Below, in pieces: positions 1 through 33,544 of a stretch of DNA of 64,000 bases; position 1 is the first letter of the stretch, and every line of letters starts with the position of its first letter. The position numbers and the translations under genes are program-made. Under the pieces are notes generated by a model. The model had not been told where the DNA came from, searched no databases, and was given only the letters and a program-made list of their open reading frames with translations. The stretch is from Pseudobutyrivibrio ruminis AD2017 (GTDB taxonomy: Bacteria > Bacillota > Clostridia > Lachnospirales > Lachnospiraceae): contig NZ_KE384162.1 of the NCBI RefSeq assembly GCF_000424305.1, positions 496,001 to 560,000 of the forward strand, in the 5' to 3' direction.

Positions 1-643
1 TGTAGGCTTCAACTTTCTCATCACTCCATCCGGCATGACGTTCTATTGGTTTTATAGAATCCATTGGTGATATTACATAATCAAAGGTTCCGTATACATC
101 CTTTGAATTTGTTAGCCTACGAATAATGTCATAGTCAGAAGGCAAAATAACCTGAAAATGCTCATGAAACTTTTCACGCATTTCTATAGACCACTGAGTA
201 ACAAGACCTGTAGGACATACCACCAATACTCGTTTTACTAGACCACGAGCTTTCAACTCTTCTATTATCATTCCGGCTTCAATAGTCTTACCAAGACCTA
301 CTTCATCGGCCAAAATATAACGTACCTGATTTGTACGAAGTGCCTTTTTTAAAGCATGAAGCTGATGCGGCAATGGAATAATTCCACTAGAAATAGGAGT
401 TAGTAATCCATCTGACATCTCATTCTTAATTTTTGAAAGCGTTGTTATAAAACGGAGATAGTTTTCATCACATCTACTGTTGTCAGAATCTGCAACTAAT
501 CTGTCTTCGCAAACCTTATATACAGTGCCAGATGCTGCATCAAATACCTTGTAAGAAATGTATCCCCAAAGGTCAATGCATTCTAGAACCATCACATTTT
601 GTCCGTTTTCCTTGTCATACGCATAACTGCCTATTTCTAGCAT
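1..643 (-). CDS. brxHII: SNF2-type helicase, BrxHII-like (partial, N-terminal 214 codons)
   Basis: Superfamily II DNA translocase of the SNF2/RapA kind, expected to use ATP to remodel or move along DNA in the defence complex. The start is ATG at 641-643; an upstream in-frame alternative is blocked by a stop. A Q-motif-like PLPHQ sits near residue 92, followed by the Walker A segment DEVGLGKT at residues 113-120, IEAG, and a motif Ia-like VVCPTGLVTQW. The gene runs off the left edge, so the DEAH box and C-terminal lobe are not visible. It starts 23 bases after the second methylase stop and is the last visible gene of the operon. The BrxHII name rests on position after BrxF, BrxC and PglXI-like genes; the helicase family itself is clear. 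Confidence 0.8.
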   Translation of the reverse strand, partial: MLEIGSYAYDKENGQNVMVLECIDLWGYISYKVFDAASGTVYKVCEDRLVADSDNSRCDENYLRFITTLSKIKNEMSDGLLTPISSGIIPLPHQLHALKKALRTNQVRYILADEVGLGKTIEAGMIIEELKARGLVKRVLVVCPTGLVTQWSIEMREKFHEHFQVILPSDYDIIRRLTNSKDVYGTFDYVISPMDSIKPIERHAGWSDEKVEAY

Positions 644-666
644 ATATTCACCATACCTAACTAAAA

Positions 667-3165
667 TTAAATTCGACTCAAGCTTATGTCATAGTACATA
701 AGCAAATTCTGATCTTCCTGGATTGTTGTGTCTGGAAGACGTTGAGCCATATCTACAATAGCCTGATAGTTTTTGTCCTTCCACAACATAGAAAAGCCTG
801 CTCTAATTGCTTCTGATCTAAATAGTTTTAGCTTTCCTTTTGTTTGCATATATCCCTCAAACTCTTTTATAAGCTTTTTCTCACGAAGCTTAGAAAGGTC
901 ACCTTCTTTTGTTATATCAGGTATATACCACTTTCCAGAATCATCTTGTAAAAAATTCTCCTCAAGTAATTCTGCCAATTCAGGTATTGCTTCGTATTTA
1001 TCCACAGATTTTACTTCTCTCATAAACTTAGGCTGAATATCTGCGTAAGCTTGTGGCTCATTTAATTGTTGATACAGCCATCCTATTGCAGTTTTTTCAT
1101 TTGTTACAACAAACGATAATTGCACTGGTTCAACATCCATTTTTATTCTTGCTGTATCATATTCATTAACCTGATCCGCTAAAAAATACATTGAATCACG
1201 TTCAATAAAATGTTCTCCAAGCCCAACATAGAACTCATGCGCATCCATAGGAATTGGAATTCCTTTCATAATGTGATAAGCCACCATTCTATCAAAGAGA
1301 AGATACGCTTGTCGCTCATCAATAATATCAATCTTCCCATTGCCGTCTGAATCGACTATTACAGGTAAATTTGCTAAATGCTGCCGTACAAATGACCACG
1401 CAGTCTCTTCGGTACCAGCATCTAACAATAAGTTGTCTGTAAAGCTCTTCTTTGGTTTATAAGCAGATATAACCAAATCCTGTTTAACTGCACCTTGACT
1501 CATTAACTGTTTGTAACTACTTTGCTGCTTATTTAATGTTCGCACATCCGCAATTACAAATCCTGCTCTCTGAATAGCTTCCTGAATTGCATTCCAAACG
1601 GAGTTTTTAGAATTATGGAACTCAATAGTTATCCATCTGTTTGGTTTTAATACTCTAAAGAATTCAGAAAAACACTTTGTCATAAGGTTTTGATATTCAG
1701 GCAATCCCTTATTCTGAGCGGCATTTATAATGGCTTCTTTGTCTTGATTAGTCATTACCTTAAGCCATGACTCCCATACATAGCTAAGCTCCGAATAATT
1801 TAAATTGCTACCAAATGGAGGATCTGTGAATATATAATCCACTGAGTTATCTGGAATAGGCAACTGCGTTGCACTACCGCATGAAATAATAGTCCCTGAA
1901 CCATTATCTCTTAATGCAAAATCCTTAAACTTTCGAATTGCAGCATCAAAAATATTGTTTTCCTGGTATAAAGATGGAATATATAAAGTTCCAGATAAAG
2001 CTCCACCTTTTCCATTAGTTCTATATCTATACGTTTTAGTGCAATTCATCATGATACTAGTAAACACAATTCTACTTAAACGCATTTTGGGATGATTGAA
2101 AATTCGAGAAAAAATCATCAAATTTCTTGGTGTCATAAAATGATGCGTATGCGTAATGCCGCTTATATCATTTCTTCTTCCCTCACTACCTTCACACATT
2201 CTATTCTGAGGAAACCATCCATTTATACTTGAATATGTTAAGTTATTAATCATTTTTAAATCTTCATCATCTGGACGCTTATTATATCTTTTTCCACCAA
2301 AAGTATAATTAATCTGGACTGGTACTTGTTTTCCAAAATTAATAACCTCACCTGTGGAATCCAATATTTTTTCTATTGCCCTATCACATGTCGCTTTTTT
2401 TAATTCCATACCACAATTAGGACACGCGAATTCATCATTTATTTTTTTTGCTTCGAGGTCTACAGCTGCATCCCAAAAAACTATTTCTTTACCACAATGC
2501 GGGCAAATAAAAACATCTGACCAAATTGTATAGTTTATCGTTCCATATTGATTATCTAAGAAGCCAAAACTATCCTCATGTTTAGTTGTGTACAAATAAT
2601 CACATTCTCGTTTGACATCTTCCATAATTTCATTGAATTCATCATGAAATTCTTTCATGGAAAAAGGCGAATTATATCCATTTGCTATAAATGTAGCCGC
2701 TGGAGAAATATCATTTAGTATAGCGTATCTTTCGCCGCTATTATTTCTTTCCGAAGGTGATAATTCAAAAACTTCCTTCTCATTTCCACATCTATGAGCT
2801 GCTACACCCGTCATACCAGTTCCACAAAATCCATCGAATACTATGTCTCCAGGTTTTGTGTAATGCAGAATATATCGCATTATTGCCTTATAAGGAACTT
2901 TAGTATGGTACGTATGCGCCATATAGATTGGGTCGTTTTTACCCTCGCTCACATCTGCTGCAAAAGGTTCTTTTTGATATGAATCATTGTCTTCATCATA
3001 TTTATGACCATATTCTGAAAGAAACTCCTCAATAAAAGGGTTCGGACATGCAGTATAATAAGGAGCTTCAGAAAGATTAATAATATCCTCGTCTGTAGCC
3101 TTTGGAAATCCTTCATATTTTCTCACTGCATCAATATCTGCTCGTGTTAAATTTCTATTCTTCAT
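667..3165 (-). CDS. pglXI: Adenine-specific DNA methylase, PglXI-like, second tandem copy
   Basis: 832-residue N6-adenine DNA methyltransferase of the COG1743 type, expected to mark host DNA in a BREX type 3 system. The SAM-binding motif I (DGFCGTG) is at residues 111-117 and catalytic motif IV (DPPF) at 448-451. The roughly 330 residues between them contain a Zn-ribbon with Cys221, Cys224, Cys248 and Cys251 and probably the target-recognition region. The C-terminal 380 residues are nearly the same as in the upstream paralogue, while residues about 290-440 are unrelated in detail. It begins 14 bases after the stop of that paralogue. Both catalytic motifs are intact, so both copies look active. 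Confidence 0.88.
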   Translation of the reverse strand: MKNRNLTRADIDAVRKYEGFPKATDEDIINLSEAPYYTACPNPFIEEFLSEYGHKYDEDNDSYQKEPFAADVSEGKNDPIYMAHTYHTKVPYKAIMRYILHYTKPGDIVFDGFCGTGMTGVAAHRCGNEKEVFELSPSERNNSGERYAILNDISPAATFIANGYNSPFSMKEFHDEFNEIMEDVKRECDYLYTTKHEDSFGFLDNQYGTINYTIWSDVFICPHCGKEIVFWDAAVDLEAKKINDEFACPNCGMELKKATCDRAIEKILDSTGEVINFGKQVPVQINYTFGGKRYNKRPDDEDLKMINNLTYSSINGWFPQNRMCEGSEGRRNDISGITHTHHFMTPRNLMIFSRIFNHPKMRLSRIVFTSIMMNCTKTYRYRTNGKGGALSGTLYIPSLYQENNIFDAAIRKFKDFALRDNGSGTIISCGSATQLPIPDNSVDYIFTDPPFGSNLNYSELSYVWESWLKVMTNQDKEAIINAAQNKGLPEYQNLMTKCFSEFFRVLKPNRWITIEFHNSKNSVWNAIQEAIQRAGFVIADVRTLNKQQSSYKQLMSQGAVKQDLVISAYKPKKSFTDNLLLDAGTEETAWSFVRQHLANLPVIVDSDGNGKIDIIDERQAYLLFDRMVAYHIMKGIPIPMDAHEFYVGLGEHFIERDSMYFLADQVNEYDTARIKMDVEPVQLSFVVTNEKTAIGWLYQQLNEPQAYADIQPKFMREVKSVDKYEAIPELAELLEENFLQDDSGKWYIPDITKEGDLSKLREKKLIKEFEGYMQTKGKLKLFRSEAIRAGFSMLWKDKNYQAIVDMAQRLPDTTIQEDQNLLMYYDISLSRI

Positions 3166-3179
3166 CTACTTACCTTCTC

Positions 3180-5690
3180 TTAAATACGACTTAAACTTAT
3201 GTCATAATACATAAGCAAATTCTGATCTTCCTGGATTGTTGTGTCTGGAAGACGTTGAGCCATATCTACAATAGCCTGATAGTTTTTGTCCTTCCACAAC
3301 ATAGAAAAACCTGCTCTAATTGCTTCTGATCTGAAGAGTTTTAGCTTTCCTTTTGTTTGCGTATAGCTTTCAAACTCCTTGATTAGTTTCTTTTCACGGA
3401 GTTTTATTACATCCCCTTCTTTAGTGACATCTGGTATATACCATTTTCCAGTCTCATCTTGTAAAAAATTTTCCTCAAGTATCACGGATAATTCAGGTAT
3501 CAATTCATATTTATCAACCGTCTTTACTTCCTTCATAAATCTTGGCTGAATATCAGCGTATGTTTGTGGCACATCCAATTGCTGATATAACCAACCAATG
3601 GCTGTTTTTTCATTAGTTACGACAAATGATAATTGTACTGGCTCAACATCCATTTTTATTCTTGCTGTATCATATTCATTGACTTGATCAGGTAAAAAAT
3701 ACATTCCATCTCTTTTTAAAAATCTTTCATCAAGACCATGATAAAAATCCGTGGCATCTATAGGCACCGGTATTCCTTGCATGATATGATACGCAACCAT
3801 TCTGTCAAAAAGAAGGTAATCCTGTCTTTCAGAAATCAATTCAATTCTTCCATTTTTTGTTACTGTTACAGGCAGTTTTTCCAAATGTTGTCTAACAAAA
3901 TCCCACGCAGATTCTTCTGTTCCAGCATCTAGCATTAGTTGTTTTTTTAGAGACTCCTTTGGTTTATACGCTGAAATAACCAAATCTTGATCAACAGTAC
4001 CTTTAGCATTTAGCTGATTTATTGTCTTTTTCTCTTTGTTTAATATTCTAACATCCGCTATAACAAAACCGGCTCTGTTTATAGCTTCCTGAATTGCATT
4101 CCAAACACTATTCTTTGAATTATGAAACTCTATAGTAATCCAGCGATTCGGTTTCAATACTCTGTATAATTCGCAAAACGCCTTTATCATTAATCCTTGG
4201 TAATCAACCAATGATTTATTTTGTGTATTATTCATGATAGCTTCTTCTGCATTATTTGTTAGTACGCCCAGCCAGCTCTCACTTAATATATTCAATTCAG
4301 AATACATAATGTTAGCGCCAAACGGCGGATCAACAAAAACATAATCTACACAGTTATCTGGAATTTGTGATAAGCATGTAGCAGACTGAGTCGAAACTAA
4401 AGTATCTGCATCCTTATATGATAAACGCTTTAGCTTGTTAAATTGGAATTCAAGTTGTGCAACTACATTGTTTTCTACCGACAACGGTGGCAAATAAAAT
4501 GTCCCTGCCATTGGTCCCACCAAAGCTCTATACTTATGCTCTTTATCATCATATTCAGGCATAAATCGATTAAGTATCGACAGTTTTGGTAAGGTGCTTG
4601 TCAACAGAAATAAAGCTTTAGAATCTGATGTTAAATCCAAAAAAGATTGAATTACATTCAGAGTTCTACTTCTATAGGCCTGCCATACATATTTCAAATT
4701 TCCTCTAAACATCTCTGGCGTTTTGTCGCCCTCGAAGAATTTAATTTGAGCATTAGGTAGTCTTCGATAATCAACATGAATAGAATGCGCCCTAGCTATA
4801 TCTTCCTGGTCCGGTTCTTTTGTATAACGAGTACCATTTACAGAATAACTAATTCTGACAGGAACAGATTTCGTAATATTCATAGGCAATCCCGAAATTG
4901 GATCTTCAATTGCTTCAACAGCTCTTAAACACTTTGCCTTAGTTAGAATCAACCCACACTTTGGACACGGAAACTCTTTTAACGACTTTCTAGTTTCTTT
5001 TTCAACAGCTTCTTTATAATAAACAAATTCCGACGAACAATGAGGACATATAAAAACATCTGACCAAACCATATAATTGATTTCACCATATATAGGCTCG
5101 CCATTAAGACCAAGCACTTCTCTATCATCTATCAAATGTTTCGTTTTATATAATTCGTGACATTTTTCTTTTAAATTCTTTAATACATTCTCAATATCAG
5201 ATATTTGTTTTTCTCTTATCGATTGATTGTAGTTTCCAGCGATGAATGCTGCAATTGTTGATATATCCGTCAATATTGCATGCCTTGCAGATAATCCAAC
5301 TCCATTGTCATCACAGATCTTAGCTGCAACTCCAGTCATACCGGTTCCACAAAAAGAATCCAAAACAATGTCTCCTGGTTTTGTATAATGTTCGATATAA
5401 GCTTTTATTGCTCTAGGCGGAACCTTTGTATGATAACTATGGATGTTATAAATTTGATCACTTTTACCCTCTGCCACATCTGATGCAAAAGGTTCCCTAT
5501 GATAATCATCCATTGTCTCATCATATTCAGTCCCATTTTCAGCCAAGAAATCTTCAATAAAAGGATTTGGACAAGCAGTGTAGTTTGGTGCATCAGAAAG
5601 CGCAATTATGTCTTCATCTTCGGCAATAGGAAAACCCTCTATATCTCTTAATTTATCTAAATCTTCTTTTGTAAGTTTTCTCTTCTCCAT
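3180..5690 (-). CDS. pglXI: Adenine-specific DNA methylase, PglXI-like, first tandem copy
   Basis: 836-residue paralogue of the next gene downstream and the first methylase of the operon. Motif I (DSFCGTG) lies near residue 111 and DPPF at 454-457, with two CPxC pairs between them (CPHC and CPKC) forming a Zn-ribbon. The segment from the Zn-ribbon to motif IV differs strongly from the sister gene (for example a long stretch after residue 300 with no counterpart), which is where DNA specificity would be expected to reside. The last 50 residues are identical in the two proteins. It starts 9 bases after the BrxC-like gene, so the two are surely cotranscribed. Methylase assignment is firm; the BREX name is from context. 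Confidence 0.88.
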   Translation of the reverse strand: MEKRKLTKEDLDKLRDIEGFPIAEDEDIIALSDAPNYTACPNPFIEDFLAENGTEYDETMDDYHREPFASDVAEGKSDQIYNIHSYHTKVPPRAIKAYIEHYTKPGDIVLDSFCGTGMTGVAAKICDDNGVGLSARHAILTDISTIAAFIAGNYNQSIREKQISDIENVLKNLKEKCHELYKTKHLIDDREVLGLNGEPIYGEINYMVWSDVFICPHCSSEFVYYKEAVEKETRKSLKEFPCPKCGLILTKAKCLRAVEAIEDPISGLPMNITKSVPVRISYSVNGTRYTKEPDQEDIARAHSIHVDYRRLPNAQIKFFEGDKTPEMFRGNLKYVWQAYRSRTLNVIQSFLDLTSDSKALFLLTSTLPKLSILNRFMPEYDDKEHKYRALVGPMAGTFYLPPLSVENNVVAQLEFQFNKLKRLSYKDADTLVSTQSATCLSQIPDNCVDYVFVDPPFGANIMYSELNILSESWLGVLTNNAEEAIMNNTQNKSLVDYQGLMIKAFCELYRVLKPNRWITIEFHNSKNSVWNAIQEAINRAGFVIADVRILNKEKKTINQLNAKGTVDQDLVISAYKPKESLKKQLMLDAGTEESAWDFVRQHLEKLPVTVTKNGRIELISERQDYLLFDRMVAYHIMQGIPVPIDATDFYHGLDERFLKRDGMYFLPDQVNEYDTARIKMDVEPVQLSFVVTNEKTAIGWLYQQLDVPQTYADIQPRFMKEVKTVDKYELIPELSVILEENFLQDETGKWYIPDVTKEGDVIKLREKKLIKEFESYTQTKGKLKLFRSEAIRAGFSMLWKDKNYQAIVDMAQRLPDTTIQEDQNLLMYYDISLSRI

Positions 5691-5699
5691 ATTTACTCC

Positions 5700-8600
5700 T
5701 TACTTACGCTTAACTACTATCCTCAACTTACTTGCATCTTTTCCCTTTGTGTAGTTCTTTACTAATTCATCAAAATTCTGCTTAAAACTATTCTCATCCA
5801 TTGGAGGTAATGCCTCCAATCTTTGAATAAGTTCATCAGCGTCAACTACAACCGGTTCAAATCCCTGTAGTAAAGCTTCAATACTCTTAACAAAGAAATC
5901 ATCTACCTTTTCAGGAAGACTTTCAGAATTAACAAGCTCGTCAATTATCTTCTTCTGATCTGGGCTTAAATAATCTTTTGAACTTGCCACTAAAGGATCA
6001 GACAATGTATCAACCAATGTTTTATTCCATTCCTTTAGCAAATCATCAATCTGATTTTCTATATTATCTAACTGCCCAAATACATTAGGCGCATCATCAT
6101 CCAATCTCAAACTACAGTGAGGACATACTGGCGTAGATTTTATATCTTCTTTCTTAAGGTCATAGCATATCTTAAGAGAAGAAAGCTTCTGCTCTATGCT
6201 ACTAAGCTTCGCAGTAGAAAGGATCTCGATGCTTCTAAGTTTTTTAAGATTTCCCAATTCCTTGCTTTCCAGAATCTGTCCCCTACGCTGAGCATCTTTA
6301 ATGTCAAGTCTCTTTTTCTTATGCTCATCCATATAAAGCTCAATATAGGCCTCTTTAATAGTGGAAAGTTTATCTTCAACTAATCTTGCTGAAGCATCTC
6401 CAGCTGTACCATCGATTATATTATCTCTTATGTCTCTAAAATCTTTCTTGGCACTTTCAATCTTTGATTTAAAATCAGCACCAAGATCCATCATTTCAAT
6501 ATTAGCAATATAGGTAACTGTTTCTAAACACTCTGACTTGAAGGTTACATATTCCTGTATTGCCTTAATCAAAAGTACTTGTTTTTCGAGTTTAGCTATA
6601 TCCTCCATCGATAAACTAAAGTTGTTAAGCTTTGCAGGAGTATTATACTTCGCTCCGTAGTTACTGAATTCTTCTTTAATAGCCTCGCAAGCAGCTAACA
6701 TCTCACTTGCAACAGCAGAATTAACCAGTGGCTCATTCCATAATTCAAAGCCATTGCTCAACTTCTGTTTTTCAATAACTGCCGTATTACTTAATTCCTG
6801 GGCTTTTTCACAAAGTTTTTCAACAGCTTTACGTTTAGCATTGTCATCACCATCTAATTCTGCAGGATTGAGATCTACAATTTCAAAAAGCTTTTTGATT
6901 TCAGCTAATGATGTCTGTGCTGGACGTGATAAATACTTAAATTCATATAAATCTCCAGCAAGAACACTTGTAATCTGATCCAAATTTGATGCAGTAATCT
7001 TCTTATTATTTTTCAGAGTTATCTCAGCATATCCTCCATAAACCATTGCCAAGAAGATAATTGGAGTGAAAATAAAATCTATCTGAAAACGCTTATCTGC
7101 ATAGTCTCCCATGAACTTTGGCTCAAATATATCAGAGTAATTAATTACTCCCTGAGGCGAGAGCTTATTAACCATATCAATGTAATAAGCAGCATACTTT
7201 GAATTCTCCGGTTTAATTTTATCTCCCTCAAGAATACCGAAGCTTTCCAGCATCATTGTAGACTGCTGTGTCTTTCTTCCTGCAAAATGATCAAAAGCAA
7301 CACGTGCATTATCCGCCATATTTCTTCTCGTAATCTTAGTTTTCATTACAGGATATTCCGGATACTTCTGATTAAAATAATCATCAAAACAAAGAGAAGC
7401 TGCTAAATCAATTGTGTCCTTGAAGGACTCATCCTGCTTATATCTTCCCTTAAGAACTTCAATTAACTGATGTTTTTCTTTTTTATAAACAACATCAAAG
7501 CAAGTATTCTTGTTTTCACCTAAATGTTTAATAAGCTTCTTTCTGTAGATTACAGATTTCTGCTCATAAGCTTCTCTATCCTTTCCTTCACTTATCTGTG
7601 CCTGCAGCTGAGCAGCAGAGAATAAGCCAAGCAACTCTTTAAAGTCGTCAGTTGACTTAAAATACAAATATACTTCATCTTCCAAATTCTGAACTGCTGA
7701 ACTATCAGCGTTGTATGGAGGCATAATATGAATATAGAAATCTCTTTCCGGCTGAGCTGTGCTTCTTTCTCCCGGTAATCCCATGAACAAATAACCTTCA
7801 CGGAACATACTATGAGAATCCCAATTCAAGTCATATTCATAGATATTGAAATTGGTAACATACTGTTTTGCATCCCACTCCAAGCAGGAATAAACAATGT
7901 CATAGAAGAATCTATTAAGCTCAGACTCCGCCAAAACAGAGGCTCGCTGCTTAATCTTCTCCTCGTAATCTACAATCTTATCTACATCTATGTAGTATTG
8001 GTTGTTTGCATCGTTATAGATGATGAACTGTCCTGAAACAGTGGTCATGATATCTTTCAAGGTCTGAGAAACGATTGAAAGCAAGAATTCAGCTTCCTGC
8101 TCTGGCATCTGAAGATACAGACAGAGATCATCCTTCAGATTCTCAGCTGTCAGACCGTACTGAACATCAAGACCATTAGTTGTAAGTCTATGTACACTAA
8201 GAGCATAGATGATTTTAATAGCCAAAGGCTTGTAGGCAGGCTTAGGGAATGATCTGTTGATGATTTCTTCCAACTGTGAACTTGCATTTACAACCTTAGA
8301 AATCATAGGATCTGATTTGAACATTCCATTATTCTTGATAGAAAGCCAGCAACTATCAAAAGAGAAAATACCAGGCGCATTCTCTGGAACTTCTTCATTA
8401 AAAATTGACTTAATGGTTGAAGAAATATCCTTCAATATATGTCTTGTCTCAATAACACTAATCTTATTGAACACATCAATGTATTCCGGATGAATAGGAT
8501 AAAGATCCACAAATTCTTCCAATCTTGAAGACATTCCAGTATAGAGCTCAGAGAAATTCTCAAGATGACTTCTAATCCAAGCCTTCTGCTCTGGTGTCTT

Positions 8601-9383
8601 CTTTAAAATTCTCTCTGATACAACATATGAGGTTGCCTCTTTTGTAATAATCAGCTGTGTGAATCTGTCACTTACCTTCTTGAGTGTATCTGATACGAAA
8701 CTGAATTTAGGATTATCGAAGATTTTTTCCTGTACACCAAAGATAACTCTAAGCTTTGACTTAGAGCACATCTCACCGAGTGCACGGAAGAATTCAAGAT
8801 CAAGAACAATCTGTCTCTCATCTCTTGAAGTTAAGTAAGAAAGGAACTCATCGACAACAATCATGTAACCCTTATCCGGATACTTTTCTTCAAAGTTAAC
8901 CATGAAATCCTTAATGATTTTCTTATTATCTTTTACATTTGCAAAATCAGGCATCTCAAATGGAATACCTCTATTCTGAAAATCTTCCTGGATATATCCA
9001 AAAAGCATTTCACGAAGAGGCATTGTTACGCCACCAATTTCAATTCGAAGAACTTCAAATTTACCAGCAATACATTCGAGTTCTTTTGCAAAATTCTTGT
9101 TCTGAAGATACTGTAAGTTTTCTTCATCTGTTGCTACTGCAGAAATAACAGACATCAAGTGAGATTTACCAGTACCATAGTTACCTACTACTAAGACACC
9201 TTTATTGTCTACAACTTCATCCATCTGCAACTGATCAAAAACAGGAGCCTGCATATTTTCTGCCATCGTATCTGACATTACATAGGTCTGCACCAATTTC
9301 TTAGCTGCTTCTTTTTCCCCCGCCTCAATCAACTGAATAGTAGATTCAATTGGTTGAAAGTTAATTAATTCTGAATACTTCAT
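5700..9383 (-). CDS. brxC: BrxC-like P-loop ATPase (DUF6079 type)
   Basis: 1227-residue AAA-like ATPase, the usual size for BrxC/PglY proteins. Walker A GNYGTGKS is at residues 67-74 and the Walker B stretch MIVVDEF ends near residue 180 (Asp178, Glu179). The N-terminus (MKYSELINFQPIES, then VVGNYGTGKSHLMSVIS) is the pattern of the DUF6079 ATPases that accompany type 3 BREX loci, recalled from knowledge of the family. The C-terminal third is rich in charged helices that could form coiled coils, with one CPHC pair near residue 1090. In BREX, BrxC is essential for phage exclusion; its biochemical role is not settled. It lies 13 bases after the BrxF-like gene. Confidence 0.85.
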   Translation of the reverse strand: MKYSELINFQPIESTIQLIEAGEKEAAKKLVQTYVMSDTMAENMQAPVFDQLQMDEVVDNKGVLVVGNYGTGKSHLMSVISAVATDEENLQYLQNKNFAKELECIAGKFEVLRIEIGGVTMPLREMLFGYIQEDFQNRGIPFEMPDFANVKDNKKIIKDFMVNFEEKYPDKGYMIVVDEFLSYLTSRDERQIVLDLEFFRALGEMCSKSKLRVIFGVQEKIFDNPKFSFVSDTLKKVSDRFTQLIITKEATSYVVSERILKKTPEQKAWIRSHLENFSELYTGMSSRLEEFVDLYPIHPEYIDVFNKISVIETRHILKDISSTIKSIFNEEVPENAPGIFSFDSCWLSIKNNGMFKSDPMISKVVNASSQLEEIINRSFPKPAYKPLAIKIIYALSVHRLTTNGLDVQYGLTAENLKDDLCLYLQMPEQEAEFLLSIVSQTLKDIMTTVSGQFIIYNDANNQYYIDVDKIVDYEEKIKQRASVLAESELNRFFYDIVYSCLEWDAKQYVTNFNIYEYDLNWDSHSMFREGYLFMGLPGERSTAQPERDFYIHIMPPYNADSSAVQNLEDEVYLYFKSTDDFKELLGLFSAAQLQAQISEGKDREAYEQKSVIYRKKLIKHLGENKNTCFDVVYKKEKHQLIEVLKGRYKQDESFKDTIDLAASLCFDDYFNQKYPEYPVMKTKITRRNMADNARVAFDHFAGRKTQQSTMMLESFGILEGDKIKPENSKYAAYYIDMVNKLSPQGVINYSDIFEPKFMGDYADKRFQIDFIFTPIIFLAMVYGGYAEITLKNNKKITASNLDQITSVLAGDLYEFKYLSRPAQTSLAEIKKLFEIVDLNPAELDGDDNAKRKAVEKLCEKAQELSNTAVIEKQKLSNGFELWNEPLVNSAVASEMLAACEAIKEEFSNYGAKYNTPAKLNNFSLSMEDIAKLEKQVLLIKAIQEYVTFKSECLETVTYIANIEMMDLGADFKSKIESAKKDFRDIRDNIIDGTAGDASARLVEDKLSTIKEAYIELYMDEHKKKRLDIKDAQRRGQILESKELGNLKKLRSIEILSTAKLSSIEQKLSSLKICYDLKKEDIKSTPVCPHCSLRLDDDAPNVFGQLDNIENQIDDLLKEWNKTLVDTLSDPLVASSKDYLSPDQKKIIDELVNSESLPEKVDDFFVKSIEALLQGFEPVVVDADELIQRLEALPPMDENSFKQNFDELVKNYTKGKDASKLRIVVKRK

Positions 9384-9396
9384 TATGTCTATCCTC

Positions 9397-9825
9397 CTAA
9401 ATCACAACCGTGATATCATAGTCATTTAAATCAAAGCTTTTATAATCACTATACCCTTCCTGAGCATAGATCAATTTGCCATCTTTATAAGTACCTGGCC
9501 ATACGACCATAAAGCTTTTTCTCTTAGAAACATTTATAAGCGTTCTCAACACATCTAATTGATAATCCGGATTAAACATCACATCAATATCTTTGATAAT
9601 TGGATTATCACCCAACTTTGAAATAATACTTGATAATATTGACTCCATCTTCATAGTTCTCATCATAGAGCTGCCGCTTTTTTGCAATTCTTTCGCAACA
9701 GGAATATTCATGGAATAGGCTTCGCTCAATTCCTCAATTTCACTCGAAGTACAAAAAATAATAGGTTTCATCAAACCGCTGATATTATCAAGTGAGAACT
9801 TATACCATTCCATTACGTTCGCCAT
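9397..9825 (-). CDS. brxF: BrxF-like protein without a visible P-loop
   Basis: 142-residue protein immediately upstream of the BrxC-like gene, the position of BrxF in type 3 BREX loci. Its C-terminal half (FNPDYQLDVLRTL, then a VVWPGT segment followed by LIYAQEGYSDY) resembles the BrxF C-terminus, where a vWnGt and YAepGHpEY-type stretch is usual (from memory of the family). BrxF is described as P-loop-containing, but no GxxxxGK[ST] is present here; the N-terminal strand is PIIFCTSSE. Either the start region has degenerated or this is a nucleotide-independent variant. Its ATG overlaps the stop of the regulator gene by one base (TAATG), which suggests translational coupling. Confidence 0.6.
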   Translation of the reverse strand: MANVMEWYKFSLDNISGLMKPIIFCTSSEIEELSEAYSMNIPVAKELQKSGSSMMRTMKMESILSSIISKLGDNPIIKDIDVMFNPDYQLDVLRTLINVSKRKSFMVVWPGTYKDGKLIYAQEGYSDYKSFDLNDYDITVVI

Positions 9826-10058
9826 TATTCAACTTCCCCCTTATTTGATTCACCTTTCTCGTAATGAATCAAATCGCCGAAGTCGCAATCAAGTTCCATA
9901 CATATCTTCTCTAAGATACTCATGGACACAGTCTCTCCTCTGCTCATCTTTGCAAGAGTGCTACTACTAATTCCGATTCTTTCATTCTCGACAAGATCCA
10001 TTTTTTTCATACCCTTGTCAATCAATAATTTCCATAATCCGTTATAAGATACAGCCAT
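9825..10058 (-). CDS. Xre/Cro-family helix-turn-helix regulator
   Basis: 77-residue protein consisting of little more than one HTH domain of the short Cro/YozG-like type: a first helix (YNGLWKLLIDKGM), the turn and recognition helix around GISSSTLAKMSRGE, then two closing helices with the ICMELDCDFGDLIHY ending typical of the group. It is the first gene of the defence operon, preceded by a GAGAGGAA ribosome binding site, and its stop overlaps the next start by one base. A palindrome lies between the promoter and its start, so autoregulation of the whole operon is likely (inference). Confidence 0.85.
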   Translation of the reverse strand: MAVSYNGLWKLLIDKGMKKMDLVENERIGISSSTLAKMSRGETVSMSILEKICMELDCDFGDLIHYEKGESNKGEVE

Positions 10059-10071
10059 ATAATTCCTCTCT

Positions 10072-10088
10072 TATGGGGATTACCCATA
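10072..10088 (-). promoter_or_regulatory. Palindrome in leader of defence operon, candidate operator
   Basis: Perfect 6-base inverted repeat TATGGG / CCCATA with a 5-base centre, lying 14-30 bases upstream of the regulator start and downstream of the promoter. Position and symmetry fit an operator for the Xre-type protein encoded first in the operon. No biochemical support is available from sequence. Confidence 0.45.
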
Positions 10089-10131
10089 TTGTTGAAGAAC
10101 CTCCCGGTCCTTATAAATAGTCCTAGATTAC

Positions 10132-10160
10132 ATTATACTCTTATAACAAGACAAATCCAA
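10132..10160 (-). promoter_or_regulatory. Sigma-A promoter of the BREX-like operon
   Basis: On the minus strand a -35 TTGGAT (10155-10160) and a consensus -10 TATAAT (10132-10137) are separated by exactly 17 bases. The predicted start is about 65 bases upstream of the regulator start codon. No other promoter of this quality is seen inside the operon, whose genes are all within 25 bases of each other. Confidence 0.65.
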
Positions 10161-10252
10161 ATACAAATTTCGACTTTTCAAAATCTATTTTTGAATCCAC
10201 AGTCAATTTTTTTATTAATTATGTTCTTATTTCCGCCTTACATAATTGCCGC

Positions 10253-10638
10253 TTACATAATTTTGCTAAATATCACTATATAGCTATAGCTTTTTTTAAC
10301 AACGTAAATTGTATGTTCTTTGTTACTCTCATTATGGTTGTACGCAAGTCTCACATCATCATCAGGAATCAAATTCATGAAAAAATTGATAGCTTCCTCA
10401 AAATATGGTGCATTATTCAAATCTTTCCTGGTTATTCCAGTAAGTTTAGAAATAAACTAATCAAGATAGCCAAGTTCAGGCTTAACATAAGTATTAAAAT
10501 GTTGAAGCTATCTCATAATTCTCATCTACAAGTACAGCACCAATCTGGATAGTCTCATTTCTTAATGGCTTTCCCTAATCCCATGAAAACTTTGGCACCT
10601 GACACATCTACTTCCAAATCAACAACTACATACTTCAT
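10253..10638 (-). pseudogene. DnaQ-like 3'-5' exonuclease, broken
   Basis: Begins at an ATG (10636-10638) with a GAGG ribosome binding site and reads MKYVVVDLE, the Exo I strand with the D-x-E metal ligands. The frame is then lost. A second frame gives ETIQIGAVLVDENYEIAS, and a third gives TYVKPELGYLD, a stop, then FISKLTGITRKDL and APYFEEAINFF, the order of a DnaQ/RNase T-type exonuclease. At least two frameshifts and one in-frame stop are present, and the last third of a normal domain (Exo II/III) is missing. It lies 17 bases downstream of the first Cys-rich peptide gene, the place held by the 395-residue gene in the second cassette. Confidence 0.75.
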
Positions 10639-10655
10639 TTCTCTACCTCGACTTC

Positions 10656-10778
10656 CTAAAACTTACCATCATCAATACAATCCCCAAAATATGGACAATT
10701 CAAACAGCACTGCCCGCAACTTCTTTTTTCGATTCTCTTCTTTTTTTGTATCCAATATATAAGTCGTTTCATAAACAT
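10656..10778 (-). CDS. 40-residue basic Cys-rich peptide, copy 1
   Basis: Small gene with a strong GAGGAGG ribosome binding site. The product starts MFMKRLIYWIQKKKRIEKR, a hydrophobic then strongly basic segment, and ends with the cysteine cluster CxxCCxxCPYFxxxC-like (SCGQCC, LNCPYFGDC), five cysteines in 15 residues. It shares about 70% of its residues with a second copy at 17631-17753, including every cysteine. Such conservation between copies about 7 kb apart argues for a real protein. Metal or Fe-S binding is a guess from the spacing. No named family is recognised. Confidence 0.75.
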   Translation of the reverse strand: MFMKRLIYWIQKKKRIEKRSCGQCCLNCPYFGDCIDDGKF

Positions 10779-10816
10779 CATTAACCTCCTCGGTTACCAC
10801 ACAACTCTTTCTCTAT

Positions 10817-10853
10817 TTTATATTCTACTCATGACATTGTAGTTTTAACGGAC
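10817..10853 (-). promoter_or_regulatory. Promoter region of Cys-rich peptide 1 with shared motif
   Basis: A -10 like TATAAA (10817-10822) has no good -35; instead the motif GTCCGTTAAA (10844-10853 read on the minus strand) covers the outer edge of the -35 position. The same motif, in the pattern G[TA]CC[AG][AT]TAAA, stands at the promoters of the other Cys-rich peptide and of both WYL regulators. A poor -35 with an abutting conserved site suggests an activated promoter (inference). Confidence 0.45.
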
Positions 10854-10888
10854 AGCTCTAAGCCTTGATTTTGCTGCGTTTTTACATC

Positions 10889-10929
10889 AAAAAAGCAGCA
10901 TCTAGTCAACTCTTTAGACCAAATGCTGC
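10889..10929 (-). terminator. Rho-independent terminator after the 69-residue gene
   Basis: Stem GCAGCATTTGGTC / GACTAGATGCTGC read on the minus strand with a 9-base loop, followed by six T. It ends the WYL-1 transcript and separates it from the Cys-rich peptide promoter. Confidence 0.8.
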
Positions 10930-11029
10930 AAATCTGCATCAAAAATGTCACCTAAAAGGCTCATAATATTATTTTCTGTTGAAAAAGACGGAACTCCCCC
11001 TCTTTTTTCTTGAAACGCACTTTTGATAA

Positions 11030-11239
11030 TTATTTCATACTGTTTTTCATGGACTCCATCATAATATCCAATAAATGTTGCTGTAGGTCTGTCAGCTTCT
11101 CAGTCTCCTGTTCATAAAATGTACCGGCCTTATCCTCAGAAATCATTCCCTTTTCTGTCATGTCATAAAACATCCAGAATTTGAAAAACCATTCTGCAGA
11201 TTTTTCAATATCTTCCCTTGTGCATTTAATTTCTTCCAT
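11030..11239 (-). CDS. Small acidic helical protein, unknown
   Basis: 69-residue protein with a strong AGGAGGTAAATGCC ribosome binding site, 44 bases after the WYL regulator stop and followed by a terminator, so it is the second gene of that transcript. It is mostly predicted helix with many Glu and aromatic residues (EWFFKFWMFYDMTEKG) and has no motif that I recognise. It occupies the position held by a UPF0175 protein in the second cassette but is not similar to it. Confidence 0.7.
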   Translation of the reverse strand: MEEIKCTREDIEKSAEWFFKFWMFYDMTEKGMISEDKAGTFYEQETEKLTDLQQHLLDIMMESMKNSMK

Positions 11240-11283
11240 GGCATTTACCTCCTGAATGAAATTAGACTAACACATTTCTATGT

Positions 11284-12270
11284 CTAAACCGTCAACCTAT
11301 TCTGAAGTTCTTTCTTATACATCTCTACTACAGCCTCTGGTCCCGTAATCGCAACATCTTTTCCAAGGCTGAATATCCATCCAAAGAATTGTAAACTAAT
11401 GGCAACATCAACAGCTATCTTGCTTCTTCCGTCCTCTACTGGACGAAAACTTATATCTTTTCCGAATCTATCTATAAAAATTCCTACCTTCTCATTAGGA
11501 AACTCAATATGTACACGTCTGATTTCACCACCAAACATGGAAAAGTTCTCCAGCGCATAACTGGTCATATCAAAGTTTTTGAAATGTTCTTCGCCCTCAC
11601 GCTTATCCTCTGAAATGGATAATTTCATCATCTTATCCACACGATAATGCTTTACCTTGCACGCCTTGGAATCATATGCGACAAGATAATAATTCTCATC
11701 CGCCCAAGTCAAAGCCCAAGGACTAACCTTATACTTTTCTCCATTCTTCCTAGGCTCCAGGGTTTTATCAAGTGTCCAAGAACAATACAAAAACTCTATC
11801 TGCTTATTACTTGAAATAGCATTATGAATAGAATCCACCGAGTAATAGATACTCTCATTCATAGTCTTGATTCTATCATTAACATATACCTGCCTTTTCA
11901 GCTGCTTGGCTTGATGCTCGCTGACAAATGCATTCATCTTTTTTATCAGCACATCAGACTTGCTCTTAGAAATGAACTTAGATGATTGGATTGCATCAAT
12001 CAGTAGCTTCACCTCTGCCAGTTCAAATATACGGCTGCCTACATGATAATAAGTCTCCCTGCCTTCCTGCTCCTTGATGACCTCTATGCCAAGATTTTCT
12101 TCCATGCATTTGAAATCATCATAAAGGCTCTTCCGCTCTGCAGTAATATCATACTTCTGCAGTTCCTTTATAATCTGTGCCAGTGTAAGACTATGCTCAT
12201 CATCGGTTTTTTCCTGCATTATTTTACATAGATAACTTAATTTTAATTTTTGATTAGACCCTTTAGACAT
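11284..12270 (-). CDS. WYL-domain transcriptional regulator, copy 1
   Basis: 328 residues: N-terminal winged HTH of the YafY/DeoR kind (residues about 10-75), a linker, a WYL domain around residues 145-220 (conserved segment ENYYLVAYD at 192-200), and a C-terminal WCX-like part. WYL proteins bind ligands such as nucleic acids or nucleotides and often control defence loci, including BREX (BrxR) and CBASS (CapW). This one is about 95% the same as the copy at 18147-19136 through residue 270, after which the WCX part diverges. A large inverted repeat overlaps its promoter. It is separated from the BREX-like operon by one small gene, one peptide gene and a pseudogene, so control of that operon is only possible. 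Confidence 0.9.
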   Translation of the reverse strand: MSKGSNQKLKLSYLCKIMQEKTDDEHSLTLAQIIKELQKYDITAERKSLYDDFKCMEENLGIEVIKEQEGRETYYHVGSRIFELAEVKLLIDAIQSSKFISKSKSDVLIKKMNAFVSEHQAKQLKRQVYVNDRIKTMNESIYYSVDSIHNAISSNKQIEFLYCSWTLDKTLEPRKNGEKYKVSPWALTWADENYYLVAYDSKACKVKHYRVDKMMKLSISEDKREGEEHFKNFDMTSYALENFSMFGGEIRRVHIEFPNEKVGIFIDRFGKDISFRPVEDGRSKIAVDVAISLQFFGWIFSLGKDVAITGPEAVVEMYKKELQNRLTV

Positions 12271-12276
12271 AAAGAT

Positions 12277-12328
12277 ACCCCCTATGTATACTCAATGCTA
12301 GTATAACACAGAGGGTTATTTATTGGAC
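12277..12328 (-). promoter_or_regulatory. Promoter and large inverted repeat of WYL regulator 1
   Basis: An imperfect palindrome has arms 12277-12292 and 12300-12316 (ACCC...TATACT and its complement, 7-base centre). The outer arm contains the -10 TATACT; the inner arm lies just upstream of the start codon. The motif GTCCAATAAA (12319-12328 on the minus strand) covers the -35 position. The same layout is found at the second WYL gene, which points to autoregulation. Confidence 0.55.
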
Positions 12329-12425
12329 GATGTTTCATGAAATTAATCTAGAATTTATATTCCCAACTTGGCTTAATTTCTTTTCTTATTCAGCTAACAT
12401 CACTAAAAACTTATTTTGTAACATT

Positions 12426-12653
12426 CTAAGGTATTTCTACTCTAACATCCCACACCTTAAGTGCTGTTATGCGTCTATAATCTGGTGAACACTCAATTAG
12501 CCCCGCTGGTCCATATCCATATTGTGCAGCTAATTTTACTAAAGGTTTAAACCAAGCATTCTTTTTTCGATTTATTTCCTCAGTGCTTGTTTCTTCTTTT
12601 TCAAATTCAATTACCAGAGGTACTAATTTTTCCATTTCTTCTCTTAATTCCAT
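12426..12653 (-). CDS. Hypothetical 75-residue protein
   Basis: Third gene of a short operon: its ATG lies 2 bases after the stop of the triple-repeat protein. The N-terminal half is acidic helix and the second half contains the pattern KLAAQYGYGPAGLIECSPDY followed by a beta-rich end. No known motif. Start is fixed by a TTTACTCC-type weak ribosome binding site inside the upstream gene (complement of AGGAGTAAAT). Confidence 0.65.
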   Translation of the reverse strand: MELREEMEKLVPLVIEFEKEETSTEEINRKKNAWFKPLVKLAAQYGYGPAGLIECSPDYRRITALKVWDVRVEIP

Positions 12654-12655
12654 AT

Positions 12656-13633
12656 TTACTCCTTTTGGCAGAACTCAGGTAGTCCCTCAGCCCATTTAAT
12701 AATCATTTTTACATCATCTTCTTCAGAAAAATATAAAATATAACTCTTATCGTCATCTGTCTCCCATTTATGACGTATCTTTTCAAGACCTTTTTCAGAA
12801 TGATATCCATCTAAAAATACAATATATTTACAATCATATTCTATGAATACAGAATATTTTTTCTTACGAAGAATCTCCTCGACGCCTTTCATTGTAAAAT
12901 ATATTTCTGGAAGATTTCGTGCCCACATAAGAATTTCATCGTGCACCTCTGCATTAACCCACAACTTATCATATCCAAATACTACTCCTTCAGTTCCATG
13001 TGAATAATTTCTTAATCCATTAACCTTTGGTTCTTCAAATGGTGCGCACCCCTCTTTAAAATATATTTCAATAGGTCTCGCTGTACTCCTTCGAACGGTA
13101 TATCCTTTTGCGTTAAGAGTTTCCACTATTTCTTTCATTTCATCTTCAACTGGAAAACTAGCATCATATTCTTCTAATCGTGGGAGCCCTTTAGCCCAGG
13201 CTAGAACTAGCTCTAGAGCTCTCTTATGTTCTTTATCCACATCTCCGTCACTAAATTTCTTTCTTTCTCTTTTAGGTGCCTCAAAACTAACTAATAATGT
13301 AGGCACAGCATCTGAATTTTTAAAAACTTTACGTAATCCCATAAATTCTCTAGCGTGACCATTTTTCCATCCCTCATAATCATCTGTATGCGGATATATA
13401 TTGGGTGAATATGGTGGTAAATAACCATCTTGAAATTCAATCCATATTGGCCAATATTGACCATATTCTTGTCTCCTCTTAGGCTGTGCATAGCCCTCGC
13501 AAAATTGCTTATGTCCTTCACAACAACATGTTGTAATGTAACCTTTTTCATTAAGAATAACAATTGTCTCAGCTAATCCTTCATCTAAATTTAATGTAAA
13601 ATCATTAATTTTAACCTTTACCTCACAGCTCAT
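12656..13633 (-). CDS. Triple-repeat protein with a CCEGH motif
   Basis: 325 residues made of three divergent repeats of about 100 residues. Each begins with a helix and a (L)N/RxKxY/GY turn (LNEKGYITT, LNAKGYTVR, LRKKKYSVF) and ends with a WA-x-x-LP signature (WAKGLPRL, WARNLPEI, WAEGLPEF). Only the first repeat carries TCCCEGH (residues about 35-41), a Cys/His cluster seen in other uncharacterised Firmicute proteins, possibly metal-binding. The start overlaps the stop of the small acidic gene upstream by one base (TAATG). No function can be assigned. Confidence 0.75.
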   Translation of the reverse strand: MSCEVKVKINDFTLNLDEGLAETIVILNEKGYITTCCCEGHKQFCEGYAQPKRRQEYGQYWPIWIEFQDGYLPPYSPNIYPHTDDYEGWKNGHAREFMGLRKVFKNSDAVPTLLVSFEAPKRERKKFSDGDVDKEHKRALELVLAWAKGLPRLEEYDASFPVEDEMKEIVETLNAKGYTVRRSTARPIEIYFKEGCAPFEEPKVNGLRNYSHGTEGVVFGYDKLWVNAEVHDEILMWARNLPEIYFTMKGVEEILRKKKYSVFIEYDCKYIVFLDGYHSEKGLEKIRHKWETDDDKSYILYFSEEDDVKMIIKWAEGLPEFCQKE

Positions 13634-13767
13634 TAAATAAATCTCTCCTTGTTACCTTTTTTCTTTTCTTCATTGTCATCATCTTCCAGCAAATTCAAAG
13701 TAATTATATCATCCATCATATCTACTTCACCATTTGAATCCCAATCAATACCAAATAAACCATCCAT
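13633..13767 (-). CDS. 44-residue acidic peptide with EF-hand-like loop
   Basis: Starts with MDGLFGIDWDSNGEVDMMDD: D-x-D-x-N-G-x-V-D-x-x-D has the calcium ligand spacing of an EF-hand or dockerin loop. The rest is an acidic helix and a basic tail. It has a good GGAGG ribosome binding site and overlaps the next start by one base, so it is the first gene of a three-gene operon. Calcium binding is an inference from spacing only. No signal peptide. Confidence 0.65.
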   Translation of the reverse strand: MDGLFGIDWDSNGEVDMMDDIITLNLLEDDDNEEKKKGNKERFI

Positions 13768-13852
13768 TACTTTTCCTCCATTTTTTTATAAAAATACAAG
13801 TTATAAGCTCATATCTTCTATAGATACAAGCATATCATCTTTATTCTATAAT

Positions 13853-13884
13853 AAAAAAATAGGTGTACTTTAAAAAGCACACCT
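13853..13884 (-). terminator. Terminator after the 211-residue gene
   Basis: Stem AGGTGTGCTTT / AAAGTACACCT on the minus strand followed by ATTTTTTT. A close copy, including flanks, occurs at 21661-21698. Confidence 0.8.
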
Positions 13885-13931
13885 CACAAATGTTAAGCAA
13901 ATCCAAAAAGCAAATATCTCTTTTATTAATA

Positions 13932-14567
13932 TCAATCAGATAATTTTGCTGAAATCTTCAGATTTGTTTCAAATAACCATGCCATATCATAAATATCAAA
14001 AGCTTTTGCGTATCTAATAGATAAAACTCGTTTGCTTCCGTCAACAAATTCATCATCAATTTCACCATTTTCTGTGCATGGACCATACGATAAGAGAATT
14101 TTTGAGTTTTCTTTAACGTCAAGCTTAAAACTTGCAATGCAATCATTAATTTGGTCCAAGACTTCGGCTATCTCCCATTCAGAAATATCGATAGAAATAT
14201 TTTTAGTAGTTGTTTTTCCCCCATTATCTAATGTGATTTGTAATTCAGTGTCATACGCATATCCAATACCTAATACGTTAGAAATAATAGTATATACTCC
14301 AAAGGTATTTAAATAATATGGTACTTCCTCTTCATACAAATCTACATAGGAACTCAAATCATCCTCACAATCAACAGCAACAGAAAGTAATGCCACAACT
14401 TCCTCACAATCCCATTCTTTGTAATTTTCATGAATAAAAAAATATGCCGCTGGAAGATTCTCAAAATATGCGCTCTGAAAAATATCATCATTCGCAATTA
14501 AAAAATCGTGATTCTTTTTTTCTCTAAACTCTACTTTTATTTTTATATCATGTCCTTTGATTATCAT
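13932..14567 (-). CDS. Hypothetical 211-residue acidic protein
   Basis: Cytoplasmic, acidic, mixed alpha/beta protein with no recognised motif, single-gene transcript ended by the terminator at 13853-13884. The N-terminus (MIIKGHDIKIKVEF) is a beta hairpin, and the middle holds an ENLPAAYFFIHENYKEWDCEE segment. Its style is like the immunity-type or SMI1/DUF proteins that accumulate in accessory islands, but that is only an impression. It is divergent from the methyltransferase gene to its right. Confidence 0.7.
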   Translation of the reverse strand: MIIKGHDIKIKVEFREKKNHDFLIANDDIFQSAYFENLPAAYFFIHENYKEWDCEEVVALLSVAVDCEDDLSSYVDLYEEEVPYYLNTFGVYTIISNVLGIGYAYDTELQITLDNGGKTTTKNISIDISEWEIAEVLDQINDCIASFKLDVKENSKILLSYGPCTENGEIDDEFVDGSKRVLSIRYAKAFDIYDMAWLFETNLKISAKLSD

Positions 14568-14814
14568 TTTTGATCCTTTCTTATATGGAAATTTTTATAC
14601 AAAGATTATACTCCAATTCTAGCTCTAATGACTATTATTTTATCACTTAATCAGTTATTCTATCTAGCTGCTGTAATATGAATTCTCTAACGCTTTTATT
14701 TATATGCTATGATATAATATTTGAATTAGTATATAGTATAGAACCCTTACTTTGTTAAGTCAGTTGTATTTTAGGTTTATATTCTATGTTTCAGCATATT
14801 GTAGGAGGATGACA

Positions 14815-16023
14815 GTGAAAAAGAAAAAAGATATTGGATTAGAATATATAAATAAATTGGGCATAAATTATGAAAGAACTATTAAGGCTATAGAAGAAAA
14901 AACGCGTAATAAATATGGTAAAGATAAAGGCCAGCAATTGATTAATAGTTTGCACGAGATTAAAAATAAATCAATTGACTATATGGAATACAATAGAATT
15001 CTCGCTTCTCAAGAGAATTTTGCTAATACATGGCAAGGATCTGTAGATGCAAATTTTGTAAGAGCTGCTTGCAATTATATTTATTCAAATAAAGATCAAT
15101 TTGGGGATAATATATTGGAAGTTGGTTGTGGATTTGGATTTTTAACATGTTTTTTGTCGCAGTTGTTTCCTGATAAACAAATCACATCTATAGATATTGA
15201 TAAATCATGTATTAAAGTTGCAAAGGAAAATGCAGAAAGACTGGGTTGTCAAAATGTTAGTTTTATTGTAGGCGATGTTAATACCATATCATCAACTTTT
15301 GATACTATATTTATTTCTAGAGTTGTTCATGAGGTGGCCGAATATAATGCTAAGTTTAATTTTAATGAAAATCCATTTTTAATAATGGATAATGTCTCTG
15401 AAAGATTAAACCCATTTACAGACTCGATTATAAAAAAATTATCTTACGATGGAGTGATAATTAGCATAGATAAAACGTATAGGAATCCCCTTTACCTTGC
15501 ATGGCTAAAGTCATTGAGTAATTCCAACTACTTTTTAGATATAGATACTCATACAGTGATAGAAGTTCCTTTATCCGGGTTGCCTAATAACACAATATTT
15601 ATGGCTGGAGTTTACAAAAGAGATATATCCACACAGGATGTTATTAATACATATTTTTCTGTATGTAGTAAGAACCTTAATTATTCATCTGAGCATCTTG
15701 AGGGGGATGAGGCTTATTTATATTTTTGGAATTCTAAACCAGAACTTATAAAGGGTGTTTCTGCAAAAACCCAAAATACAGATGGAATGACTATTACAGT
15801 TACCTTTTTACTTGCTTTTTCAGAGATAAACCATTCTTATATAGAATACTATTTTTACGATGCTGATGCCAAAATTGCAATACTTCCACAGGAGTTATTC
15901 ACTAAAGAAGAAGCATTATCTCAATATAATGATGATTATAGCAATTTTTTCCAAACACCTAATAAACATCACTTTCATGATATAGTTGAACTAAGTACAC
16001 TTAATCGTATGATTTTTGATTAG
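14815..16023 (+). CDS. Class I SAM-dependent methyltransferase
   Basis: Start chosen at GTG 14815 because AGGAGG at 14803-14808 is 6 bases upstream; the ATG at 14809 directly abuts it. The product is about 402 residues. Motif I ILEVGCGFGFLTC is near residue 100, motif II acidic residue in ITSIDID, and a motif IV-like region FDTIFISRVVHE. The last 150 residues form a separate domain of unknown kind (TVTFLLAFSEINHSYIEYYF). Substrate is unknown; the SRVVHE segment and lack of an NPPY motif argue against a DNA methylase. The only plus-strand gene in this island, followed by a terminator. Confidence 0.8.
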   Translation: MKKKKDIGLEYINKLGINYERTIKAIEEKTRNKYGKDKGQQLINSLHEIKNKSIDYMEYNRILASQENFANTWQGSVDANFVRAACNYIYSNKDQFGDNILEVGCGFGFLTCFLSQLFPDKQITSIDIDKSCIKVAKENAERLGCQNVSFIVGDVNTISSTFDTIFISRVVHEVAEYNAKFNFNENPFLIMDNVSERLNPFTDSIIKKLSYDGVIISIDKTYRNPLYLAWLKSLSNSNYFLDIDTHTVIEVPLSGLPNNTIFMAGVYKRDISTQDVINTYFSVCSKNLNYSSEHLEGDEAYLYFWNSKPELIKGVSAKTQNTDGMTITVTFLLAFSEINHSYIEYYFYDADAKIAILPQELFTKEEALSQYNDDYSNFFQTPNKHHFHDIVELSTLNRMIFD

Positions 16024-33470: not shown

Positions 33471-33544
33471 TGTAGACGGCCGGATTCGAACCGGCGGTCT
33501 TCGGAGTCGGAGTCCGATGCGTTATCCAGCTACGCTACGCCTAC
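33471..33544 (-). tRNA. tRNA-Arg (anticodon CCG)
   Basis: 74 bases forming a full cloverleaf. Acceptor GTAGGCG pairs with CGTCTAC with one G-T wobble; the anticodon stem TCGGA / TCCGA encloses the loop CTCCGAC, giving anticodon CCG, which reads CGG. The T arm is CCGGTTCGAATCCGG. CCA is not encoded. Confidence 0.95.

Follow-up and report, generated by a model that had tools for sequence, protein, structure and literature searches.

The window analysed here, a stretch of 64,000 nucleotides, contains two diverged alleles of the methylase gene pglXI in tandem within a type 3 BREX operon. Sequence comparison and analogy with type 1 BREX suggest that the pair probably equips one exclusion machine with two specificities. 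The operon, formed by the window and the left continuation of its own genome, was confirmed to be complete.

Gene content of the operon

All operon genes in the window lie on the minus strand, and the operon extends ~4.2 kb beyond the left edge. The gene order is xre, brxF, brxC (DUF6079), pglXI copy 1, pglXI copy 2, brxHII, pglZ, and brxA. The first gene, xre (9825..10058, minus strand), encodes a 77-aa protein with a Cro/C1-type HTH (Pfam HTH_26, 64.7 bits). The brxF product (9397..9825, minus strand; 142 aa) matched the PADLOC BrxF profile over residues 39-141 (66.6 bits, E 5e-19). The ATPase encoded by brxC (5700..9383, minus strand; 1227 aa) matched PADLOC BrxC (1321.7 bits) and Pfam PF19557, or DUF6079 (1519.9 bits), the latter over the full profile (1-1238 of 1238). 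The two methylase genes follow at 3180..5690 (copy 1, P0002; minus strand, 836 aa) and 667..3165 (copy 2, P0001; minus strand, 832 aa, between copy 1 and brxHII), and their products scored 1013.1 and 1158.1 bits, respectively, against PADLOC PglXI. The window holds the first 214 codons of brxHII (1..643, minus strand); the entire gene encodes 890 aa (5971-8643 of L004). To the left of the window lie pglZ (PADLOC PglZ, 219.8 bits; Pfam PglZ, 33.1 bits with a cut-off of 25) and brxA (PADLOC BrxA, 166.7 bits).

The helicase has a Swi2/Snf2 domain (Pfam SNF2-rel_dom, 75.4 bits). In PADLOC it scored highest, at 986 bits, against the profile named BrxHI|BrxHII, whose description reads BrxHI; the profile described as BrxHII gave 254.3 bits. 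We call the gene brxHII because of the SNF2 domain and its position in the operon.

These assignments bore out the initial annotation, which had read the gene order as type 3 BREX: the six canonical genes, as listed in the available parts of PMC10799925 and PMC12839542, were recovered in order with PADLOC and Pfam profiles. It had proposed profile searches for BrxF, DUF6079, PglXI, and BrxHII, all of which matched, BrxHII through the profile named BrxHI|BrxHII. It had also counted a missing pglZ next to the helicase against the assignment; both pglZ and brxA were found beyond the helicase. A system of the DUF499/DUF1156 type, raised there as the alternative, was not supported, as no operon protein gave a DUF499 Pfam row at E 0.001 and the copy 2 product scored 31.7 bits against PADLOC DUF1156_MTase versus 1158.1 for PglXI.

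The one-base overlap of xre and brxF (TAATG), which had been singled out as a distinctive fusion of the regulator into the operon, is real. It is not special to this operon, in that an xre-like match also lies upstream of brxF in 5 of the 12 relatives having a brxF match. Gaps between neighbouring genes measure 9 to 23 bases, and the neighbours that overlap share 1 or 8 bases, so co-transcription of the operon is likely. Promoter-like and terminator-like sites in 1-11000 numbered 31 and 3, compared with 43.3 and 4.6 in shuffled sequences, hence no excess.

Divergence and ancestry of the two methylases

The claim that both methylases are complete was upheld. Both reading frames are open from start to stop, and both products retain the FCGTG of motif I, the DPPF motif, and four cysteines. 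In copy 2 the motif residues are F113, G115, G117, and DPPF 448-451, and the same motifs are found in copy 1; most of the motif residues and the four cysteines are invariant across 16 homologues. In both proteins a target-recognition domain (TRD) is inserted between motif I and DPPF. Alpha-class N6-adenine methylases have this order of motif I, variable insert, and DPPF, as stated for PglXI in the accessible text of PMC12839542. The predicted structures of copies 1 and 2 had mean pLDDT values of 64.1 and 65.6, and searching the PDB with that of copy 2 returned, among the best 50 matches listed, general SAM-methyltransferase matches with a low TM-score.

The two proteins are 58% identical overall, and this identity is unevenly distributed. 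It amounts to 66% in the N-lobe, 33% in the TRD, 63% in the second catalytic part, 78% in the C-terminal domain (CTD), and 97% in the last 62 residues. In the aligned blocks dN was well under dS, and dS was at least 0.87 and mostly saturated in all full 50-codon blocks except one. The exceptional block, residues 779-828 of copy 1, had a dS of 0.15 and contains most of a 101-base identical run; over the final 191 bases, 180 are identical. Among positions with identical amino acids, the same codon was used at 44 of 48 in residues 771-824 versus 219 of 416 in the preceding part (Fisher p 4.5e-8), and the highest tail share of same codons among 45 pairs of 10 relatives was 0.61. The share was also raised in places at residues ~641-730 (0.56-0.76), and over residues 561-770 it did not differ from that in the front part (86/154 vs 133/262, p 0.36).

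The near-identical ends lie within a direct repeat. One 300-nt unit (654..953, no strand assigned) covers the 3' end of copy 2 plus spacer, with the identical run at 695-795, and the other (3167..3466, likewise 300 nt and unstranded) covers the 3' end of copy 1 plus spacer, with the identical run at 3208-3308. The units are 87% identical at a spacing of 2513, and frame copy 2 between them. At the junction, the copy 1 stop is followed by 14 bases and the copy 2 ATG, outside the 101-base run. A simple assembly artefact appears unlikely, because the copies are mostly too dissimilar to be confused and the junction lies outside the identical run.

Front parts and CTDs gave different trees. In the careful tree of residues 1-560, copy 1 grouped with L006 and L013 (100/100) and copy 2 was placed elsewhere. 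Joint origin of the front parts was rejected with 24 rows (AU p 2.9e-38) and with 33 rows (AU p 1.1e-4), and joint origin of the TRD alone was also rejected (p 0.002). With a quick 50-row tree, a joint origin of the front parts was not rejected (AU p 0.15), and the outcome thus varies with the rows included and the method used. The rows of the 24-row and 33-row trees were hand-picked, close relatives first; the alignment was made without L022, L025, L026, L032, and ORFs below 600 aa, and the quick trees omitted L018 and L023 too. In the careful CTD tree (residues 561-770, tail excluded) the copies were placed together (94/94, not starred), as they were in the quick CTD tree (SH-aLRT 98).

The difference between the trees implies that the histories of the front parts are separate and that the back part is common or was later made alike. 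A plain recent duplication as the whole story was rejected by the dS blocks and by the 24-row and 33-row trees. On the sequences compared, we read the front two-thirds as diverged alleles from different pglXI lineages and the C-terminal part alone as common. The methylase gene had been described as duplicated, a description that holds for the C-terminal part and not for the front two-thirds.

An operon tree was built from BrxC, PglZ, and BrxA with the 12 rows having all three long. In it the window paired with L006 (100/100), and L007 and L013 appeared as sister operons (100/100). Since both the operon and the front part of copy 1 pair with L006, copy 1 is the likelier resident, and we regard it as probably the resident allele. 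The sister operons L007 and L013 share 91% identity in BrxC, 88% in BrxHII, 86% in BrxA, and 83% in PglZ; their PglXI proteins are 98% identical in the tail, 79% in the CTD, and 27% in the TRD. Their DNA match is lost partway through the N-lobe portion of pglXI and is regained in the latter half. This pattern suggests an exchange of alleles at a locus with one pglXI copy, and the constant end is the one that the pair of the window also has. In L013, the reading frame of pglXI is interrupted early on.

Occurrence of the pair and of other genes beside pglXI

We compared 21 relative loci, in 14 of which BREX genes flank pglXI on both sides. At least 0.5 kb separates pglXI from the next BREX gene in 6 of the 14 (L006, L009, L011, L013, L019, and L021), and in 6 of the 14 the place of copy 2 is taken by genes of other kinds, several of which are known from defence. 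A brxHII match behind pglXI was missing in 3 of the 14 (L006, L016, and L019). Of the 18 loci whose contig also carries brxC, 5 (L008, L011, L017, L020, and L025) have a gap of at least 0.5 kb between brxC and pglXI. The ORFs of most of these gaps were catalogued, excluding the brxC-side gap of L017. Among the gap ORFs searched against profiles, L009 and L013 each had an oligonucleotide cyclase, and L009 also had an effector of the Cap15 type. The L021 gap contained SIR2 and HerA, L006 had AlbA_2/HATPase proteins, and L011 had a protein kinase. Ahead of pglXI, the matches were AlbA_2/HATPase proteins in L011, a nuclease of the DUF1016/YhcG type in L020, and, in L025, a reverse transcriptase of the Drt4 type. 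From a by-eye reading of ORFs, L013 has a putative effector and L019 a putative HigBA-like pair. In L023, a PglXI CTD lies in frame behind a histidine-kinase-like part; we judged this to be a chimeric contig or a truncation and did not use it as proof of docking. L026 was left unused for an N gap within the ORF.

An adjacent intact pglXI pair was found in none of 56 other distinct pglXI-bearing genomes. The pair was absent from the 4 other pglXI-bearing genomes of the order survey (392 genomes), one of which holds a contig-end fragment, and from the 7 others of the class survey (391 genomes; G046 is common to both). No adjacent intact pair occurred in the 46 others of the phylum survey (398 genomes), nor did a pair occur in the 21 genomes of the relative loci, a set that may overlap the 56. 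The order, phylum, and class surveys scored at most two candidates per genome and recovered the pair of the window as two each time; draft contigs breaking at pglXI could conceal a pair. Two matches were present in 12 of the 46 phylum genomes, on different contigs in nine of these. In G449, G698, and G754, neighbouring pieces cover successive parts of the profile and probably represent one split gene each. Four of the 21 relative-locus genomes had two or three matches, located on different contigs in G821, G826, and G827 and derived from one split gene in G823. The paired arrangement looks rare, and as no second genome was found to bear it there is no sign that selection keeps it.

Within the genus, none of 28 other genomes had a pglXI match; the operon is therefore patchy and was probably acquired. 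Phage records gave no PglXI match at E 1e-20, and viral contigs gave no pattern match for close relatives. Among plasmids, 13 records had a PglXI match, all below 60% identity; 12 have one match place, and record H6 (4.9 Mb, Aeromonas) has two. Two flank genes followed across 29 genus genomes, its own included, showed no empty site. No tRNA was found in L003 or L005, and the one tRNA in the window (33471-33544) is far from the operon.

Proposed function, alternatives, and known systems

In the consulted portions of PMC11341690 and PMC11842806, PglX of type 1 BREX determines the site of both marking and exclusion and acts in a larger complex. Site choice is established there for type 1 and not for type 3, and the type 1 results may not be transferable to PglXI. 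By analogy with type 1 PglX, each PglXI would bring its own site to one machine. The CTD would be the constant part fitting the single BrxC/BrxF/PglZ/BrxHII machine, and each TRD would read its own site. Self DNA would be marked at two motifs, and phage DNA bearing either motif unmarked would be excluded. Copy 2 probably introduced a front part of foreign origin at the place behind pglXI, where other genes are common among relatives, and the C-terminal ends might be kept alike by gene conversion or by the common origin of the C-terminal part. The conservation of the CTD and the conversion signal agree with its docking on other BREX proteins, without proving it.

The initial annotation had suggested that two methylases would protect two DNA sites or allow switching of the self-mark; its observation was confirmed and its interpretation partly supported. 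An invertible pglX switch was not supported, as a search of 600-5750 gave no inverted-repeat pair of at least 20 nt. A change by deletion is possible, as homologous recombination at the direct repeat could excise copy 2 and leave brxC - pglXI - brxHII with copy 1 whole. If PglXI determines where attack takes place as well, this loss would presumably do no harm. With regard to slippage, the longest tracts in the sequence are 7 A in copy 1 and 8 A in copy 2. More tentatively, PglXI could be an exchangeable specificity subunit of type 3 BREX, whose constant CTD fits the machine and whose TRD-bearing front serves as a cassette to be exchanged or added. Two specificities would then run together in this operon, with docking ends kept alike by gene conversion and the second cassette droppable through the direct repeat.

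Other roles for the pair seem less plausible. Copy 2 might be a passenger in a gene-accepting slot, a transitional state in which one copy matters and the other is to be lost. The other genes found at its place in 6 of 14 relatives, the lack of a second tandem in the 56 or the 21 pglXI-bearing genomes, and the ease of loss offered by the direct repeat would all fit. Nevertheless, both genes are open and complete with dN well under dS in the aligned blocks, and the 14-base spacing between them resembles that in the rest of the operon; we consider this explanation unlikely. Paired methylases of some type IIS systems each mark one strand of an asymmetric site. A pair whose TRDs differ could likewise read both strands here, and type 1 BREX sites are asymmetric, as given in part of PMC11842806. 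The same source, however, describes one-strand marking as sufficient in type 1, and the other type 3 loci compared manage with a single PglXI; a division of strands seems highly improbable. Least probable of all is that both copies share one motif and that the second adds amount or resists phage inhibitors. The copies do belong to the same family and operon and are both intact, and PglX-binding phage proteins exist in type 1 (PMC11341690, in part). Yet one shared motif would predict the reverse of the identity pattern, in which the TRDs are least alike (33%) and the ends most alike.

We favour two specificities on one machine. Two TRDs on near-identical C-terminal ends constitute a natural built-in test of specificity. 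Should both copies prove functional, an extra specificity subunit rather than a whole extra system is enough for BREX to broaden its range.

Among known systems, DUF499-centred BREX-related systems have a homologous ATPase, methylase, and helicase (available text of PMC12839542); unlike them, the window has a full-length DUF6079 match, pglZ, and brxA, with no DUF499 Pfam row. The closest likeness is to type 3 BREX itself, with which the operon shares all six genes, brxF, brxC, pglXI, brxHII, pglZ, and brxA, in the same order and, according to the same portion of PMC12839542, a PglXI with an inserted TRD and a four-cysteine motif. It differs by the second, diverged pglXI before brxHII and by the xre in front. 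Type 3 loci bearing BxaP also have an extra gene between PglXI and BrxHII, but BxaP is an unrelated defence protein acting alone, as described in the excerpted PMC10799925, whereas the extra gene of the window is a pglXI. No description of tandem pglXI was found in the listed titles and abstract openings of the open-access literature or in the accessible part of PMC12839542. Earlier cases of BREX clusters whose pglX is duplicated or varies in phase are mentioned in the part of PMC11842806 consulted, and the window resembles those clusters in having more than one pglX. It departs from them in that its copies are direct, no inverted repeats were found, and the front parts belong to different lineages.

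Irregular pglXI reading frames and a promoter-like match

Among promoter-like sites in the region, the top-scoring one (11/12) was located on the minus strand at window positions 3808-3781, within copy 1 of the tandem pglXI methylase genes and upstream of copy 2. The frequency of promoter-like matches in the region was not above that in shuffles. In three related loci of other genomes, a frame change or stop codons interrupt pglXI, at about 10246-10270 in L013, at about 8345 in L020, and at about 8250 in L025. These breaks could represent assembly error, decay, or on/off variation. Additionally, L023 (8486-10816) contains a histidine-kinase-like part followed in frame by the PglXI C-terminal domain, and this ORF is probably attributable to a chimeric contig.

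Genes nested in related BREX operons and genes downstream of brxA

In two related loci, an oligonucleotide cyclase and a Cap15-type effector are encoded between pglXI and brxHII (L009, 12578-14148, with the effector identified by a profile match; L013, 12484-14065, with the effector read by eye), representing CBASS-like pairs nested inside a type 3 BREX operon. SIR2 and HerA genes occupy the same position in the type 3 BREX operon of L021 (12606-15636).

Downstream of brxA in the host genome, beyond the left edge of the window (L003), we detected a gene for an 825-aa UvrD-type helicase (13089-15566), followed by that of an 886-aa protein (10445-13105), which had no matches in Pfam or PADLOC profiles. 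A 71-aa PC4-like protein precedes the two. Judged from layout only, the pair is AddAB-like; across the 22 related loci that were listed, neither of these two large genes was matched.

WYL-domain genes upstream of the operon

Two minus-strand genes encoding WYL-domain proteins (window 11284-12270 and 18147-19136), with 298 of 326 residues identical (91%), frame a stretch of ~6 kb upstream of the BREX operon. Since BREX systems have known WYL regulators (BrxR), one of these two proteins may, by analogy, regulate the operon.
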